This document shows, piece after piece, positions 93 through 8,629 of a stretch of DNA of 34,371 nucleotides (positions are counted from its first letter, which is position 1; each line of letters starts with the position of its first letter). The translations under genes and the position numbers were made by a program. Under the pieces are notes generated by a model, which searched no databases, had not been told where the DNA came from, and saw nothing but the letters and a program-made list of their open reading frames with translations. Origin of the DNA: Acidobacteriota bacterium (GTDB lineage Bacteria > Acidobacteriota > Terriglobia > Bryobacterales > Bryobacteraceae); the NCBI GenBank assembly GCA_016871115.1, contig VFZP01000013.1, forward strand, positions 1 through 34,371, given 5' to 3'.

Positions 93-3000
93 TTACATGA
101 TCGCTAACAAAACGCGCAGCAACCACCCACGCGCGGGCTGTTTTGTGAGCTGAGCGGCCGCGTGGACGTACCAGCGGAGCTGCGTCTCGTAGTGCCGGCG
201 GCGCGAGTGGAAGTCCGCGTCGGTCTTGTAGTCGACGATCTGCCATGACGCGCCGTCGAAGTAAGCGAGGTCCACAATGCCTTCGAGGAGGCGGCCGTCC
301 GCCGCGCGGAAGCGAACCGGCCACTCGCGGTGGACGCGTGGCGCGGCGGCGGCCGCTTGCAGCAGAGGATGCGCGAGCGTGGCGGCCACGGCTTCCGCCG
401 CGGCGGCGCGCTCTTCCTCCGGCGCGCCCATGATGCGGCTCTGCAGTTCCACCTGCGTCTCGACGGTTTCACGCGTGGCGCGGAAATCGATGTCGCGCAT
501 CACCACATGGAGGAGCACTCCGAAATGCGAGCCGAAGGCGCGCGGCGTTGCCGTGTCGCGGCGGGCATCCGCCACGTCCACTGGCAGCACGGCGGGAGGC
601 GGCTCAGTGGCTTCGCTCGGCGAGAAGATTGTGAAAGCCGGTGTGGCTCCGCGTGCGGCGATGGCCTCACGCTGCTCGCGCCACGCTTCGTACGCCGTGA
701 TGCTGGCAGACTCTTCGTCGCCCGCCAACACCTCCTCCTGCCGGAAACCGTAGTTGGCTTCGACGCCCAACTTCAATGCCCCGGGGTCCCACCACACCAA
801 GCGGTGCGCGCCGGCCGAGGGAGTGACCAAGCCGGGCCTCACCGACATCTCTCCGCCCCGGTTCATCTCCGGCGGCCGGCTGAGCACGGAGCTGTCTCCG
901 AAACGCGGGCAGCCATCGGCTTGCGGCTCGGAGCGGCGGAAGGCGCCCTTCTCCGGATACACGGCACGCCACAGCGGCGATAGCCAACTGTCCTGCACTT
1001 CTTCGTCGCCCACCGTGGGCACCACCAGAAGGTCACGCGCACGGGTGGCCGCGACGTACGCCACGCGCACGCCCTCGGCTTGCTCACGCGCCAGTTCGCG
1101 GTCACGATGTGCAAGCAGCGGCCACGGCGTGCATTGCAGCAGGCGCATGGCGCACAGGTGGCGCTCGGAATCCACGTAGCGATCCGGCTCGCGAGGCGAC
1201 AGGTTCGCGGTCATGTCGGCGAGGATCACCACGGGAAACTCCAGGCCCTTGGCGGCATGCACGGTCATCATGCGGACGCCTTCGGAGCCTTCTTCGAGGG
1301 CGGGCGCTTCGGACGACTCGGCCTTTTCCACCTGCGCTTCCAGCATCTCCACAAAGCCACGGAACGAGATGCCGCCTTCGCTTTCATAACCGCGCGCCAC
1401 GTCGGCCACGCGATACACGTTGGCCAGCACCTGTTGGCCACCGGGGCGCAGAGCAAAGCCCGCGTGCGCGCGGGTGAATTCGAGGAGCTGATGCACGGTG
1501 GCCGCCACGGGCCGCCAGTTGCGCTGGCGGTGCAGTTCGCGCAGCAACTCCAAGGCCTGGCGAATCGGCGTGAACTTTGCGTCGAGTTGATCGAGGTCCG
1601 GCAGGTACGGCGACAGCCGCTTGTACAAGAGCCGGAACTCGAGCAGCAATGCATCGGGGATCGCGAACAACGAGCCTTTGAGCGCCGCGAAGACCGAGAG
1701 TTCATCGCCCGGCCACTCCACGGCGGCCAAGGCCGCGCGCAGCGTTTCCACCTCCTCGCGCGCGTGGAACGAACGCGAGCCCACGAGCAGGTGGGGGATG
1801 CCGCGGGCTTCGAGGCTGCGTGTATAGTCGCGCGTGAGGTCACGCCCGAAGCTGGTGAAGCGGCGGAACAGCAAGCAGATGTGGCGCGCGGAGATGGGCG
1901 TGAACGCACCCGTGTCGGGGTCTTCCACCTGCCAGCCGCTTTCGTTGATGAGCCACTCGGCGTAGGCGGCGATCGTGTCCGGCAGGCAGTTGTTGATCTC
2001 GATCTTCGAGAGCCGGAACATGCCATAAGGACGCGGCGCGGGTAGCGCGACGACGGAGGGCTGCCCGGTGAGCGGGGTGCGAACTTCTTCGAGAGGTGAG
2101 TACTCGGCTTGGCCCGCTTCCATGTCGCCCGTCATCTCCGGCGCGAAGGCGGCGTTCACCATTTGCTGAATCGGGTGCACGGAACGGAAGCTGCGAGTGA
2201 GGCGGACCACGCCCACGCCGCGCCCGGCGAGCCGGTCTCGCAGGCCGCGATACAGCACGACGTCCGCGCGGCGGAATTTGTAGATGGACTGCTTGGGGTC
2301 GCCCACGAGGAACAGCTTGCCCGGCACGGGCGTGACGTCGAGCCAGTCATCCGCGGCCGCGGCGTCTGAGCAGAGCAGCAGGAGGAGTTCCGCTTGCACC
2401 GGGTCTGTGTCCTGGAACTCGTCAACGAAGATATGCGAGAAGCGGCGCTGGAGGAACTCGCGCACTTCGCGGTTGTCGCGCACGAGGTCGCGCGCCTTCA
2501 GCAGCAGGTCATGAAAATCGAGGAGCCCCGCCTGGCGCTTGAGTTCTTCGTAACGCTCAACGAGGCCTGACATTTCTTCCCGCAACGCGTGCGCAAGATC
2601 GGCTTCAGACTGCACGCGGAACTGGTCCAGCGCGTACGTCAACTCCTCAGCGCCTTTCGCCTTGATGCGGGTGAGATCGCGCAGGAGCTTGAGGAGCAGC
2701 GCTTCAAGCGTATCGTAGTCACGTGCGCCAACCGCTTCAGACCGCTCGATCCACGCGGCGAGATCCGTGACCACCTGGAACTTCTGGTTCACGCGCGGCG
2801 CCATCTGCCGCACACGCTCGGCCAGTAGGTCCACTTCCGTGGCGCGGTCCCACTCCACGCGATCCCACGGCGTGGGATAGTCGCGCCATTCAATCAACGC
2901 GCGGCCCGCGGACTTCAGCCGGTCCAGCGGGGCTTCCTCGCCGGGCTGCAGCGCGAGGCGGATCAGCGCGCGGCGCAGCCCGGGCGCCGTTTCGTTGAGC

Positions 3001-3473
3001 TGCTCCTGGATCCAGGCGCGAAACGCCCGCTCCTGGATCTGGCGGCTTGCGAGTTCGGTGAGTTCGCGGAAGGCCGGATCCACGCGCGCCTCCACCGGGC
3101 GCTCACGCAGGATCTGTCCGCAGAAGGCGTGGATGGTGCCGATGGACGCTTCTTCGAGATGCGCCAGCGCGCCTTCGAGCGCCGCGCGCCGCTGATCGCT
3201 GTCTTCCTCGGCGCGTGCACGGTCAAGCTCCTGCCGCAGGCGAAGCTTCAACTCGCCGGCGGCTTTGTTGGTGAAGGTGACGGCGGCAATCTTGTCGATG
3301 TCAGCGCCTTCGGCCAGCACAGCCACGATCCGGCGTACCAGTTCCGTCGTCTTGCCCGTGCCCGCGGAGGCCTCCACGATGAGGCTTTCTTGTAGCGATG
3401 TGCGGATGCGCTCACGCGCCGCCGCGTCTTCGTTGTCGCGCGGTACGAGCCGAAGCCCTGCGCCGCTACTCAT
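93..3473 (-). CDS. addA: AddA/RecB-like UvrD-family helicase-nuclease
   Basis: ATP-dependent SF1 helicase with a C-terminal nuclease, expected to work with the neighbouring AddB in processing double-strand breaks for recombination. Visible helicase motifs: Walker A ASAGTGKTT (about residues 35-43), motif Ia AAVTFTNKAAGEL, Walker B FVDEFQDTD (about 350), motif III LVGDPKQSIYKFRRAD, a TVHAAKGLEF motif V and a YVAATRARDLL motif VI. The C-terminus keeps a PD-(D/E)XK nuclease core, GIVDLAY then IVDYKTD (about 1063-1083). Length is about 1126 residues, normal for AddA. The ORF track starts 27 codons earlier, but I choose the ATG at 3473: it overlaps the addB stop as ATGA and has GAGGG five bases upstream. 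Third gene of a ku-addB-addA operon. No Chi-recognition assignment can be made by eye. Confidence 0.93.
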   Translation of the reverse strand: MSSGAGLRLVPRDNEDAAARERIRTSLQESLIVEASAGTGKTTELVRRIVAVLAEGADIDKIAAVTFTNKAAGELKLRLRQELDRARAEEDSDQRRAALEGALAHLEEASIGTIHAFCGQILRERPVEARVDPAFRELTELASRQIQERAFRAWIQEQLNETAPGLRRALIRLALQPGEEAPLDRLKSAGRALIEWRDYPTPWDRVEWDRATEVDLLAERVRQMAPRVNQKFQVVTDLAAWIERSEAVGARDYDTLEALLLKLLRDLTRIKAKGAEELTYALDQFRVQSEADLAHALREEMSGLVERYEELKRQAGLLDFHDLLLKARDLVRDNREVREFLQRRFSHIFVDEFQDTDPVQAELLLLLCSDAAAADDWLDVTPVPGKLFLVGDPKQSIYKFRRADVVLYRGLRDRLAGRGVGVVRLTRSFRSVHPIQQMVNAAFAPEMTGDMEAGQAEYSPLEEVRTPLTGQPSVVALPAPRPYGMFRLSKIEINNCLPDTIAAYAEWLINESGWQVEDPDTGAFTPISARHICLLFRRFTSFGRDLTRDYTRSLEARGIPHLLVGSRSFHAREEVETLRAALAAVEWPGDELSVFAALKGSLFAIPDALLLEFRLLYKRLSPYLPDLDQLDAKFTPIRQALELLRELHRQRNWRPVAATVHQLLEFTRAHAGFALRPGGQQVLANVYRVADVARGYESEGGISFRGFVEMLEAQVEKAESSEAPALEEGSEGVRMMTVHAAKGLEFPVVILADMTANLSPREPDRYVDSERHLCAMRLLQCTPWPLLAHRDRELAREQAEGVRVAYVAATRARDLLVVPTVGDEEVQDSWLSPLWRAVYPEKGAFRRSEPQADGCPRFGDSSVLSRPPEMNRGGEMSVRPGLVTPSAGAHRLVWWDPGALKLGVEANYGFRQEEVLAGDEESASITAYEAWREQREAIAARGATPAFTIFSPSEATEPPPAVLPVDVADARRDTATPRAFGSHFGVLLHVVMRDIDFRATRETVETQVELQSRIMGAPEEERAAAAEAVAATLAHPLLQAAAAAPRVHREWPVRFRAADGRLLEGIVDLAYFDGASWQIVDYKTDADFHSRRRHYETQLRWYVHAAAQLTKQPARGWLLRVLLAIM

Positions 3474-6400
3474 GGCAACCCTCGCAGGCGATTCAATGCG
3501 TCCAACCGCTCCGCCGGTTTGCGCCGCAAGCGCTCTTCTTCGCGCGGGCCGCACACACGCTCGTAGTCACACATCGTGCACGCTTCGCGCGCGGGGGCGG
3601 CCGGCAAGAACCCTTGCGCGAGCGCTTCGTCGATTCCCTCCAGCACCTGCTCCAGATGCTGCCGGGCGATCGGCTTCACCGGCACGCTGTATTCCTTGTA
3701 GCCGCCACGCTGCGTGCAATAAAACAGACGCCCCATGGAAACGGGCTGTCCCAGCATCTGCCCGGCGGCCAGCGAATACAGCAGCGGCTGCAAAACCGCG
3801 CCGCCGCCCACCGCCATTGGAGCTTTGTCGAGGGGGCGGCCTGTCTTGTGATCCGTGATGCGAATCAGGCCTGACTCGCGGTGGCGCTCCACCAGATCGA
3901 TCGATCCGCGGAGCCGCACGCCTGCCATCGGCGCCACATCTTCGGCGCGCGAAGCATCGTCACGCGAGCCGCCGCGTTCTTTCAACCCGAAGCCCAGCTC
4001 AAAGTGAACCGGCGTCCATTCGTCGTCAATGGTGGCCACGTGCCGCGCCCATGTGCGCAGATCGGTGCGCAGGTCTTCGATCTCGCTCACCCACACGCGG
4101 TCAATCGCGGGCGCCAGCTTCTCGCGCCACTGCTCGGCTACCTGATTCAACGCGCGGTCTGCATGCTCCAGCGCGGGGGCGAGCCGCGAACGGTCCAGCG
4201 GCAAAAGACCTTCGTGCTTCATCGCCTGGAAGAACGTGAACTGCGCTTCGTGGAACAACGCGCCGCGCGTCAACGGGTCCAGTTGCTCCAACGCGGCAAT
4301 GCCGTCGCGTTCGCGAAGCCCGTGCACGGCCTGCAGAAAGAAACGATACGGGCACGAAGCATACTGCTGCAGCGAGGTGGCCGAATAGACGCGGGCGCTC
4401 AAACGGTGGGCCTCCAGCAAACCCGCCGTGGGCGCGTCTTTGCTCGCCACCAATCCATCCGCCCATGACCAGGCGTTCTTCCAACGCAACCACCGCGTGC
4501 GCAGCGAACGCGCCAAGTGGGTGTTGACCGCCAGCAGATACCGCCCCACGCCGCGACGGCGTTCCGGCGGCAAGTCTTCAAACTGCCGCAACGACGCAAT
4601 ATCGTATTCGGTATCGTCAATGGCCTCGCGTGGATCCGCCGGCGCGGGCCATCCCAAACGCGACGGCGCGGCCTTGGCGGCGCGCTCCTGAAACTTGCGC
4701 AACTCCGGCAATGCGCCTTCGGCAGCACGCACCACTTCCAGCGCATAAAACGACGGCACGCGCGGGCGCGATTGCGCGGTATCCATGCGCGGATAGGACA
4801 CCACCAGTTGCTGCTCGGCGGCACCTGCCGCGACGGCTAACAGGAGCCGCTCGCGCGCCACTAGTTGATCGCGCCCGGGCAGCGGATGCGGCAAGGCGCG
4901 GCGGTAATGATCCAGTAACAGCGGATCCTCGTACGCTTTGCGCGGAAAGACTCCCTCGGTAAGGCCCGGGAGAAACACGACGTCGAACCGGTGCGCGCGG
5001 GCCTCCTCAATCGTGCCGCAGAACACCGCGCCATATCGCCGCGACGGTGGGTCGGCGCGCAAGAAGCGCAGGCGATCCTGCAACACGCCGTACACTTCAT
5101 CCAGCGTCGCGGGGCCCACTTCGCCCATCGGCCGCAGTTCATTTAGTACGGCCAGCACGGCTTCCGGCGCGCGCAGCGTCGTCTCGGCGAGTTCGATTAG
5201 TGCCGTCAGCCACTCGGTCCACTTTGCGCGGCGAGGCAAGGCGTCCAACAGCCCGATCACCGGCAGCGCGAAGCCTCTCAACGCGCTGAGTTGCTCCAGC
5301 CGGCGTGATGTGCCCTCGCTCTCGGCGCTGCTCAGTTGTAGCTTCAACTCTTCCTCGTAACCGTCAATGCGGCGCTCCCAACGCGCGCGCCCGCCCACCA
5401 CGGCGGCATCCACCAGCAACTGCTCCCAGCCGCGCGGCGCGGTGATCACCGGGCCCGGTCCAGCAGCCTCGCCCTGCGGCGACTCACCCGTGTCGGCGTC
5501 CGGTTGGAAGCCTGCCAGCAGTTCGTCCTGCGGCGGCGTGAAACCACGTTCCACACGCACCGGGCCGCCGCCGGCATCGAGATCCGGCACCTGCGCCAGC
5601 GATAGATACTCAGCAAAGCGCGACGCTGAACAATCTTCCGCCGCGCATTGCAGCAGCGCCAGAAACGCACGGCCTGCCGGATCCGGACGCGCGGACCCAC
5701 GCGGAAAAAACGCCGGAATGCCAGCCCGGCGCAACGCGTCCTCGAGCAACGGCTGATACTTCTCCGGGTTGCGCATCAGTGCGGCCATCGCGTCGAACGG
5801 CAGTCCTGCTGCCGCGAGCTTCTGGATGCGGCGCGAGATCTCCACACACTCCAGGCCCTCGCCCGGCGCCGAGAACACTGCCAACGAGTCATCCACCGGT
5901 GCGGCTTCGAGGTGTGTTTCAAACACCTGCCGCCGCAGGCGCGCCAGAGTTTTCTCTTCCCGCGCATCGCCGTCCACTGCGCCGATTTCAGCCGCTACGC
6001 CGAGCGCCGCTTCCAGATGCTTGCGCGATTCTTCGTCCGCCTCGAGCGTCACGGCCAGTACCGCGGGCGAGCGCTGTACGAACGCCGCCACCAACTCGCG
6101 TTGCCTGGCAGACCGCACAGCCACGTCGAGCATCAGCACCGGCAATCCCAGGACGCGGTGCGTGCCATCGCCGGCGGCCTTCAGCGCGAGGCCGTAGAGC
6201 GTGGCTTGATCAGAGAGAGACTGCTGCTGCAGTTGCGCCGCGAAGTCCAGGTGCAGCCGCGCAAGATCCGCCCCGGGCGCGCCGGTGGCGGCGAGTTCGG
6301 CGGCCCCCACGTTCTCCATGCGCAGCTCGGTGAGCGTGCGTGCCGCCGCGCGCACAAAGCCCGGCGTATCGGCGACGGGGTGGAAATAGGGTAAGCGCCG

Positions 6401-6700
6401 GCTCGCGCGCAACTCATGCACCACGCGCGCCACCAGCGCTTCGAGCCCCAGCATGCTGACCGGAGCCAGCCCCCAGCGCGCGAGTTCGGGAGAAGCAAGC
6501 TGCGCGGCGAGGTGCGACAGCGTGAGCGTATGGACGCCGAGGAGCCCTTCGCCGCACACTTTGCGAAGAAGATCGTCCGCCGCGCTGCGCGATGGAGCCA
6601 GCACCAGCATTTCCGATGCGCCGCCGCGATGCGCCTCCAGAAACGCGGCCGCTTCGGCATGCATGGCCGCGGCGGCCGGAAAGCGAACGAGCCGCGTCAC
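3470..6700 (-). CDS. addB: AddB-like PD-(D/E)XK exonuclease subunit
   Basis: Partner subunit of the AddAB helicase-nuclease. At 1076 residues it has the length and layout of AddB: an N-terminal inactivated helicase-like region and a C-terminal nuclease with GSIDLVE (about 930) and IRITDHKTG (about 948). The four cysteines of the AddB iron-sulfur staple are visible: one in YASCPYRFFL (about 780) and three in ACTMCDYERVC (about 1040, C-x2-C-x5-C). The N-terminus shows no Walker A GKT, so this subunit probably does not hydrolyse ATP, unlike Bacillus AddB. It starts at a GTG that overlaps the ku stop (GTGA), and its own TGA overlaps the addA ATG, implying translational coupling on both sides. Function is inferred from family knowledge and gene order. 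Confidence 0.9.
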   Translation of the reverse strand: MTRLVRFPAAAAMHAEAAAFLEAHRGGASEMLVLAPSRSAADDLLRKVCGEGLLGVHTLTLSHLAAQLASPELARWGLAPVSMLGLEALVARVVHELRASRRLPYFHPVADTPGFVRAAARTLTELRMENVGAAELAATGAPGADLARLHLDFAAQLQQQSLSDQATLYGLALKAAGDGTHRVLGLPVLMLDVAVRSARQRELVAAFVQRSPAVLAVTLEADEESRKHLEAALGVAAEIGAVDGDAREEKTLARLRRQVFETHLEAAPVDDSLAVFSAPGEGLECVEISRRIQKLAAAGLPFDAMAALMRNPEKYQPLLEDALRRAGIPAFFPRGSARPDPAGRAFLALLQCAAEDCSASRFAEYLSLAQVPDLDAGGGPVRVERGFTPPQDELLAGFQPDADTGESPQGEAAGPGPVITAPRGWEQLLVDAAVVGGRARWERRIDGYEEELKLQLSSAESEGTSRRLEQLSALRGFALPVIGLLDALPRRAKWTEWLTALIELAETTLRAPEAVLAVLNELRPMGEVGPATLDEVYGVLQDRLRFLRADPPSRRYGAVFCGTIEEARAHRFDVVFLPGLTEGVFPRKAYEDPLLLDHYRRALPHPLPGRDQLVARERLLLAVAAGAAEQQLVVSYPRMDTAQSRPRVPSFYALEVVRAAEGALPELRKFQERAAKAAPSRLGWPAPADPREAIDDTEYDIASLRQFEDLPPERRRGVGRYLLAVNTHLARSLRTRWLRWKNAWSWADGLVASKDAPTAGLLEAHRLSARVYSATSLQQYASCPYRFFLQAVHGLRERDGIAALEQLDPLTRGALFHEAQFTFFQAMKHEGLLPLDRSRLAPALEHADRALNQVAEQWREKLAPAIDRVWVSEIEDLRTDLRTWARHVATIDDEWTPVHFELGFGLKERGGSRDDASRAEDVAPMAGVRLRGSIDLVERHRESGLIRITDHKTGRPLDKAPMAVGGGAVLQPLLYSLAAGQMLGQPVSMGRLFYCTQRGGYKEYSVPVKPIARQHLEQVLEGIDEALAQGFLPAAPAREACTMCDYERVCGPREEERLRRKPAERLDALNRLRGLP

Positions 6701-7572
6701 GCCTTCTTGCGGGGTTTCCGCGCGGGCGCGGCATCGTTGGTGCCGGTTAGCAGCAATTGTTGTTCGGGCTCGGCCTGATCGGAGTCTGCCCCCGCGGCGG
6801 CGGGCTTCTTGAAGGCCGCCAGACTGGTCTTCAGGGCTTCCATGATGTCGATCACCGGCGCGAGTTCCTGCGCGGCGGGTGGCGCCACCACATCCTGATC
6901 CTTCACCTCGGACTCAATCATGTTCTTCAGCGACTCGCGGTAGGTGTCCTTATACTTCTCCGGCTCGAAGTGTCCGCCCAGCGCCATCACCAGACTCTTG
7001 GCCATCAGCAGTTCTTTGTCCTGGACCATTCCGGTGTTGACGCGGAACTCGTCAATGGCGCGCACTTCGTCCTGGTAGTACATGGTGTGCAGCAGGATGC
7101 CGTGGCGGCCCGGGCGCAGCACTACCGTGTGCTCGCGGTTGTGCATGGTAATCTTGGCCAGCGCAAATTGTCCGGAGTCGTTCATCGCCGCATACAACAG
7201 CGTGTAGGCCTTTTCGCCCGCTTCGTCCGGCTGCAGGTAGTAGCTGCTTTCGAGGTACACCGGGTCGAGTTCAGACGCGGGCACGAACTCGAGGATTTCC
7301 ATCACTTTTGCCGTTTTCGGCTGGATCTTCTTGATGTCCTCTTTCTCGATGATGACGTAGCGGTCTTTCTCATACTCGAAGCCCTTGACGAGTTCGCTAC
7401 GCGGCACCGGTTTGTCCGTACTGGCGGAGAAAAGCACCTGCTTGACGCGCGAGTGGTCCGCCTTGTGGAGTTGATTGAAGCTTACGGTTTCCGGCCGCGC
7501 GGCGACGGTCATCTTCACGGGAATGGAGACCATGCCGAACGTGATATGACCTTTCCAATTAGTCGCTGCCAT
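6697..7572 (-). CDS. ku: Prokaryotic Ku, non-homologous end-joining protein
   Basis: DNA-end-binding homodimer of bacterial non-homologous end joining. The opening NWKGHITFGMVSIPVKM, with a central stretch reading QFALAKITMHNREHTVVLRP and LLHTMYYQDEVR, is typical bacterial Ku. Length 291 residues fits the family. The C-terminal tail after about residue 255 is low complexity and ends basic (RKPRKKA), as in many bacterial Ku tails that touch DNA or ligase. ATG start at 7572; only a weak purine stretch precedes it. The usual partner, LigD, is absent from the window. Instead Ku is the first gene of a coupled operon with addB and addA, whose products act in resection for recombination. No operator or dedicated promoter was recognised in the 139 bases upstream. 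Confidence 0.95.
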   Translation of the reverse strand: MAATNWKGHITFGMVSIPVKMTVAARPETVSFNQLHKADHSRVKQVLFSASTDKPVPRSELVKGFEYEKDRYVIIEKEDIKKIQPKTAKVMEILEFVPASELDPVYLESSYYLQPDEAGEKAYTLLYAAMNDSGQFALAKITMHNREHTVVLRPGRHGILLHTMYYQDEVRAIDEFRVNTGMVQDKELLMAKSLVMALGGHFEPEKYKDTYRESLKNMIESEVKDQDVVAPPAAQELAPVIDIMEALKTSLAAFKKPAAAGADSDQAEPEQQLLLTGTNDAAPARKPRKKA

Positions 7573-7711
7573 TCTCGTTTCATAGCACTAACTGCGCTGC
7601 GCCCGCAACTACGAGATCCGCCCGCGGCCTTCAAGCCCGTGGTTTGACCGCCGGCCCGCGAATAGGTTGCACTTCTCCCGGCGGGCGCACCTTCGGTTTT
7701 TCCGAACACCG

Positions 7712-7957
7712 CTATAACCAGGCGTTCACTTCGGCGGAATGAAAGCGCCACTGTCCCATCGCCTTGAACCCAGGCAATCCTTCGACGCCGTGCGAATCCT
7801 CGTGCAGCCGCGCCCAGCGAGTCACTGTGCCGGCCGACATACGCAGCCAGCGCGCCACGTCCGCCGCGGTGAGCGCGCCTTCGCGCTGCGCAATCAGCGT
7901 TACGACTTTACCGTTCCGCCGCCAGAACCACGCTGCCGCCGCCGCTGCCTTGGCCAT
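7712..7957 (-). CDS. Small helix-turn-helix DNA-binding protein
   Basis: A protein of about 81 residues with a predicted winged or excisionase-type helix-turn-helix: LTAADVARWLRMSAGTVTRW forms the helices and QWRFHSAEVNAWL resembles the C-terminal strand/helix seen in HTH_17 (AlpA/excisionase/MerR-like) proteins. I start it at the ATG at 7957 rather than the ORF-track 8020, because TAGGAAC lies at good Shine-Dalgarno distance and the upstream gene ends only 8 bases before. It is the last gene of the rimP operon by arrangement. Its target is unknown; a role as a local regulator is an inference only. Confidence 0.7.
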   Translation of the reverse strand: MAKAAAAAAWFWRRNGKVVTLIAQREGALTAADVARWLRMSAGTVTRWARLHEDSHGVEGLPGFKAMGQWRFHSAEVNAWL

Positions 7958-7965
7958 GTCTGTTC

Positions 7966-8629
7966 CTATCTCGTGATCCGCAGATTTGCGAAATGCGCTT
8001 CGGTTCCGGGTCCGATCCAAAGAGCCACCGCGCCTTTGGCGCCCGGGCCCAGCTTGAGATCATTGACGACCAGCGTGGGTTGGGCGTTGCCATGCACGTA
8101 CAAGCGCGCCTGTTCGCCTTGCACGGCGATGCGCACCTTGGTCCACGCCCCTGGCTCGAGATCCACATACGACTCATACTTCTCCGGCGTTTCCTTGCGC
8201 GACCGCGCCCAGGGATACTCGGGAAAAGAGATGTACTGCACCGAGTGATTGCGCCTTCCCTGGTCTTCCGCCCGGCCGTTGGCGGGCCGCAGATAGATGC
8301 ATTCGAACTTCGACACGTCGGGCGCCACGCGAAAGGCGACACCCACAAAGCCGCACGCCTGTCCGGATGCACCGGCGCCGGGACGCCCCGCCAGATCGAT
8401 CTCAATGACGCCGTTGGTGAAGTCCTCGGTGCCGCCGATCAGCACCAGCTTGTCTTCGCTCTCCCGCGGACTCCGGCGTCACGCACAGCCCCGCACGGCC
8501 TTGATGAACCGCGGCGGCAATGGCTGTCTGGTGTGCCTTGAGTCCGTCCGGACCGTCCAGCGAGCGCGACAACGTCGTCTGCGCTGAGAGGGCGGCGGTA
8601 CACAGCAATACGACTCCTGTCAGCTTCAT
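7966..8629 (-). pseudogene. LamG/concanavalin-like exported protein, frameshifted
   Basis: The 5' part (8402-8629 frame) encodes a Sec leader, MKLTGVVLLCTAALSAQ, and about 40 further residues. The 3' part (7966-8445 frame) encodes a beta-sandwich resembling LamG or 3-keto-disaccharide hydrolase (DUF1080-like) domains, with DFTNGVIEIDLAG, GFVGVAFRV, VDLEPGAWTKVRIAVQG and AHFANLRI. The two parts are in different frames. In the 3' frame a TGA sits just upstream near 8480 and coding resumes as ESEDKLVLIGG, so a one-base change between about 8460 and 8485 splits the gene. GGAG seven bases ahead of the ATG supports the start; the upstream gene stops one base before it. Could be true decay or a sequencing error. 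Sugar or glycan binding is inferred from fold only. Confidence 0.75.

Follow-up and report, generated by a model that had tools for sequence, protein, structure and literature searches.

Organization of the ku-addB-addA locus

Three genes lie in a row on the reverse strand of the window, by which we mean the whole 34,371-nt stretch of DNA analyzed here, the start of contig C13 of a 6.3-Mb genome in 639 contigs. The run opens with ku (6697..7572; 291 aa, ATG start), which encodes an intact bacterial Ku, and continues with addB (3470..6700; 1076 aa, GTG start), encoding a helicase-like protein with a PD-(D/E)XK nuclease, and addA (93..3473; 1126 aa counted from the ATG of its overlap with addB), encoding a UvrD-type helicase with a C-terminal PD-(D/E)XK nuclease. 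The TGA stop of ku and the GTG start of addB share the bases GTGA (6697..6700, reverse strand), and the addB stop and addA start overlap in ATGA (3470..3473, reverse strand). An earlier note on this DNA had described the run and its two overlaps, and the open reading frames place them exactly where it did.

Gene overlaps of 4 bases are frequent in bacterial operons, so the overlap by itself is weak evidence; the other addB-addA junctions that we compared have the same 4-nt overlap as in the window. The ribosome-site-like motif AAGAAGG ends 1 base before the GTG of addB in the window's species, too near to serve well, and re-initiation after ku is therefore likely. Upstream of ku is a 139-nt gap (7573..7711, reverse strand) that could hold a promoter, in which a scan for the sigma-70 consensus gave no match. 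Beyond this gap, a small helix-turn-helix protein weakly like MAD1, from a defence system, is encoded on the same strand (7712-7978); it was not found 5' of ku in the other genomes with ku next to addB.

Sequence analysis of Ku, AddB, and AddA

The Ku protein scored 283.4 bits against TIGR02772 (Ku_bact; cut-off, 150) over residues 4 to 251, which identifies it as a full-length bacterial Ku, and 163 bits against the Pfam Ku domain. Its relatives in the PDB are 9vnq, 8v53, and 9i91. Proteins of this family are homodimers that encircle DNA ends and stimulate LigD. The Ku of the window retains 78 of 81 residues that are otherwise invariant, and its branch, at 0.69, exceeds all others of its clade in the Ku tree.

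AddB contains a PD-(D/E)XK domain (PDDEXK_1, 126 bits). Its cysteines C783, C1041, C1044, and C1050 and the stretch D950-H951-K952-T953 are invariant among 12 relatives, and we take the four cysteines to be the pattern expected of an Fe-S nuclease. AddB combines, in sum, a helicase-like fold with a PD-(D/E)XK nuclease carrying Fe-S cysteines, and its best solved relative, weakly, is Bacillus subtilis AddB. AddA, whose gene adjoins addB, has a UvrD-type helicase (UvrD-helicase, 192 bits; UvrD_C, 75 bits) followed by a C-terminal PD-(D/E)XK nuclease (PDDEXK_1, 34 bits), with B. subtilis AddA as its best solved relative. Neither protein reached the cut-off of the corresponding NCBIfam equivalog model (AddB, 65 of 904 bits; AddA, 271 of 708 bits, AddA being its best match). 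The models are meant for Firmicutes or alphaproteobacterial proteins, so the scores argue against membership in the named subgroups and not against AddAB in general.

Distribution of the ku-addB junction

We searched a 150-genome sample of the family (Bryobacteraceae-like Acidobacteriota) for Ku, AddB, and LigD and then all 237 family genomes with Ku of the clade described below. Across the family, the usual neighbor of ku is a divergent ligD. Two loci titled 'Acidimicrobiia bacterium' and 'Bordetella parapertussis' (L010 and L044) carry a Bryobacteraceae-type ku-ligD pair and are probably mislabeled metagenome bins.

Among the 237 genomes, 8 from 5 genera were found with ku immediately before addB (termed linked genomes: G000, which is the window's, G022, G087, G117, G082, G012, G011, and G102). 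The spacing ranges from -4 to +9 nt in all eight, with a 4-nt overlap in G000, G087, and G117, a TAATG junction in G011, and gaps of 2 to 9 nt in G022, G082, G012, and G102. The exact overlap is not conserved among them; only the closeness is kept. What exceeds chance is the recurrence of this tight junction in eight genomes and five genera, at AddB identities of about 50 to 54% and without other shared neighbors. These eight genomes rule out an oddity of a single genome, which the earlier note had named as one way for its proposal to fail. Chimeric contigs from metagenome assembly would suit the draft state of the linked genomes and the position of the window at the end of a contig. The same junction in eight separate assemblies, from five genera and with different flanks, nevertheless rules out such an artifact in practice, and we give it next to no credence.

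The best 15 Ku matches in the 237 family genomes comprise the linked genomes and G091, G030, G110, G070, G069, G109, and G132. In the first four of these unlinked genomes, ku faces ligD and addBA is located elsewhere; in G069, G109, and G132, ku has neither ligD nor addB as a neighbor. A ligD was seen in all linked genomes, though only as an edge fragment in G102, and the LigD frame is free of stops in six of the linked genomes other than G000. In G011, ligD, ku, addB, and addA stand in a row, with ligD divergent from ku, and in G102, a 28-residue piece of LigD, likewise divergent from ku, is encoded at the contig edge beside ku-addB.

Outside the family, none of the 34 Acidobacteriota genomes with Ku and a strong AddB match (two of them with Ku fragments only) had ku near addB on a contig. 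The comparison outside the clade likewise gave no Ku within 1.5 kb of AddB at any of the 29 AddB loci fetched from genomes other than the window's. Nor was addB found beside ku in Firmicutes, proteobacterial, and other Ku loci, where the AddB query has little power at such distances. The presence of AddB strongly predicts that of Ku across Acidobacteriota, in counts that shared ancestry inflates and that use a 200-bit threshold of our choice: Ku was present in 46/48 family genomes with AddB versus 48/102 without it and, in the rest of the phylum (phylum sample, 257 genomes), in 34/42 versus 51/213.

Origin and stability of the junction

All eight linked genomes fall into one 15-genome Ku clade (support, 100/99) and into one LigD clade (100/100); in the AddB tree they are a compatible set (88/98), which is weak and has no resolution inside. 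On the Ku tree, four changes are required to account for the linked and unlinked states, the number that a single gain with three losses would give. Judging from these trees, ku and addB most likely became joined once, in an ancestor of this Bryobacteraceae clade, and would then have been separated three times within it, about as often as addB and addA (twice). Since the joining probably dates to the ancestor of the 15 genomes, it is not a recent rearrangement in the window's genome. The earlier note had considered that ligD might adjoin ku in close relatives, with a recent rearrangement here; ligD does adjoin ku in relatives, but the rearrangement is not recent.

We then looked into the surroundings of the linked loci. 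The only genes that they have in common are ku, addB, and addA; no flanking gene is shared, even among three species of genus g23, and no shared upstream neighbor was found. The ku-addB pair has thus persisted while the gene order around it has changed. It has also stayed intact in two genomes where addA lies on other contigs, with unrelated neighbors in each, namely G022 (loci L145 and L203; ku-addB spacing, +9 nt) and G117 (L147 and L204; -4 nt). The gene convergent with addA in the linked genome G102 occupies the same place in the unlinked G091, G030, G069, and G132, a pattern that points to addBA having kept its position, with ku and ligD moving in front of it.

These observations bear on a possible, although rather less probable, reading in which the arrangement is a frozen accident. 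A rearrangement would have put ku before addBA and left a compact junction, with addB riding on ku transcription and no functional tie between Ku and AddAB; the link would persist only because addB would lose its promoter on separation. Such a history fits the lack of the link in 7 of the 15 clade members, the confinement of the arrangement to one clade and its absence from the 34 other Acidobacteriota with both genes, and our sequence comparisons of Ku and AddB, in which the linked genomes showed no shared change that would set them apart. It accounts less well for the persistence of ku-addB amid fully scrambled flanks and for the two genomes in which addA, the partner of AddB, left the cluster and ku did not.

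ligD in the window's genome

No ligD is encoded in the 34-kb window, which begins at a contig end next to addA, and within the part of its surroundings that the contig covers, ku does not have a ligD within about 10 kb, as a conventional nonhomologous end-joining (NHEJ) locus would. The earlier note was correct in finding no LigD in the window, but the gene is not absent from the genome: it lies on contig C210, at 3275-5860 of locus L150. The PE, LIG, and POL domains are all in one frame, with two stops inside the POL part (TAA near 5219 and TAG near 5726 of L150), and in-frame coding similarity runs on past each. By the same leave-one-out count, this LigD retains 265 of 308 positions invariant in eight relatives (86%; 43 lost), compared with 94 to 99.6% for the relatives themselves. 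The losses of invariant residues by domain are 6/71 in PE, 8/95 in LIG, and 13/112 in POL, and no other branch in its clade of the LigD tree is as long (1.04). We read this sequence as a gene probably in early decay or one that has lost its polymerase domain; the stops could also be sequencing or assembly errors of the draft genome. A truncated LigD may work, since its PE and ligase domains remain open and the KWDG motif is present. A ligase on contigs C88 and C378 (loci L003 and L005) was rejected as a LigD copy. It is a single ATP-dependent enzyme of the 'cisplatin damage response' type, split over the ends of these two contigs, and a DEAD-box helicase, which we read as Lhr-like, comes next.

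The state of ligD counts in favor of a doubtful proposal, that Ku is a physical partner of AddAB (as a loader, brake, or processivity switch) acting independently of LigD at least in the window's species. There, Ku is intact next to a ligD with two in-frame stops in its POL part and 43 of 308 invariant residues lost, and the survival of ku-addB beyond addB-addA in two genomes points the same way. The six linked genomes with an uninterrupted LigD frame speak against this idea, as do the open PE and ligase domains of the window's own LigD and the chance that two stops in a single draft genome are assembly errors. Moreover, no extra domain, tail, fusion, or length change was found in Ku or AddB; the loading or limiting role for Ku that the earlier note had raised is hypothetical. 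We consider it at least as doubtful that, in the window's lineage, Ku moved from LigD-dependent joining to the service of AddAB, where it would act as a dedicated gatekeeper or loader at ends through contact with AddB while ligD decays.

A proposed joint message for Ku and AddAB

We propose, with a probability of roughly 58%, that the run is an operon that coexpresses an end-binder, Ku, with an end-resector, AddAB, and so would tie protection of DNA ends to their resection. The usual divergent ligD-ku pair would have come to sit directly before addB-addA once, in the clade ancestor, and descendants would later have dropped ligD, addBA, or addA from the cluster, with ku-addB kept in 8 of 15. 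As predicted from the gene order, one message would carry Ku and AddAB. Ku would be translated first and, in the window's species, AddB by re-initiation, so that translation of the two would be coupled. The joint message would tie protection and resection of ends to each other in a set ratio, with a possible effect on pathway choice: ends bound by Ku would be passed to LigD or another ligase for joining, and free or released ends to AddAB and RecA. In most species, Ku most likely still serves LigD.

Published work on each component bears on this proposal. Ku reportedly protects ends from exonucleases and brings in a dedicated ligase (PMC1533848); on its own, it has been described as a possible block to recombination at break ends (PMC7719229). 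Ku and AddAB are non-epistatic in B. subtilis (PMC1533848). The coordinated pathway choice suggested by the earlier note is in keeping with a confirmed gene run that one clade conserves and that changes less than the DNA around it; the ligD that the note had found missing from the window is present elsewhere in the genome. The link is not essential, as ku and addBA are apart in 7 of the 15 clade members.

Ku and AddAB or RecBCD are as a rule encoded in separate places and investigated separately, which leaves the choice of bacteria between end joining and resection unsettled. A natural operon that apparently makes Ku and AddAB from one message, and whose ku-addB pair has been kept through extensive gene shuffling, offers a direct handle on the choice of repair route. 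The arrangement is old and persists in eight species of one Acidobacteria group, where a single message may govern two repair routes that compete. Within the clade, relatives that carry the link can be matched with others that lack it, and ligD occurs beside ku, away from it, or in broken form.

Comparison with known systems

No report of a ku-addAB operon was found in the titles and abstracts of the open-access literature on NHEJ or Ku with AddAB or RecBCD. The locus is an operon-like arrangement of known parts, unreported in the open-access literature searched and conserved in one clade.

A possible likeness in action, and a lead on mechanism, is offered by the Gam protein of phage Mu, a Ku-type end-binder that keeps the exonucleases of the host off linear DNA (PMC1378119). 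Gam is, however, a phage protein that does not share an operon with the nuclease, and we liken the two in action only.

In a survey, 75% of the bacteria with conventional NHEJ had ku and ligD at most 10 kb apart (PMC7719229). The locus described here resembles this two-component system in its genuine bacterial Ku and in its relatives, in which ku lies head-to-head with a gene for a three-domain (PE-LIG-POL) LigD; G011 and G102 retain ligD beside ku-addB. It differs in that the tight downstream partner of ku is addB-addA, whereas ligD, interrupted by stops, lies on a different contig.

With B. subtilis AddAB (PDB entries 3U44 and 3U4Q), the proteins share the UvrD helicase of AddA, a PD-(D/E)XK nuclease in both subunits, and the invariant cysteines of AddB. 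The genes share the order of addB before addA, here with the ATGA overlap. The relationship is distant, with scores far below the NCBIfam AddA and AddB equivalog cut-offs. The B. subtilis addB-addA pair is joined downstream by the repair genes sbcD and sbcC (PMC1533848), whereas here the additional repair gene, ku, lies upstream.
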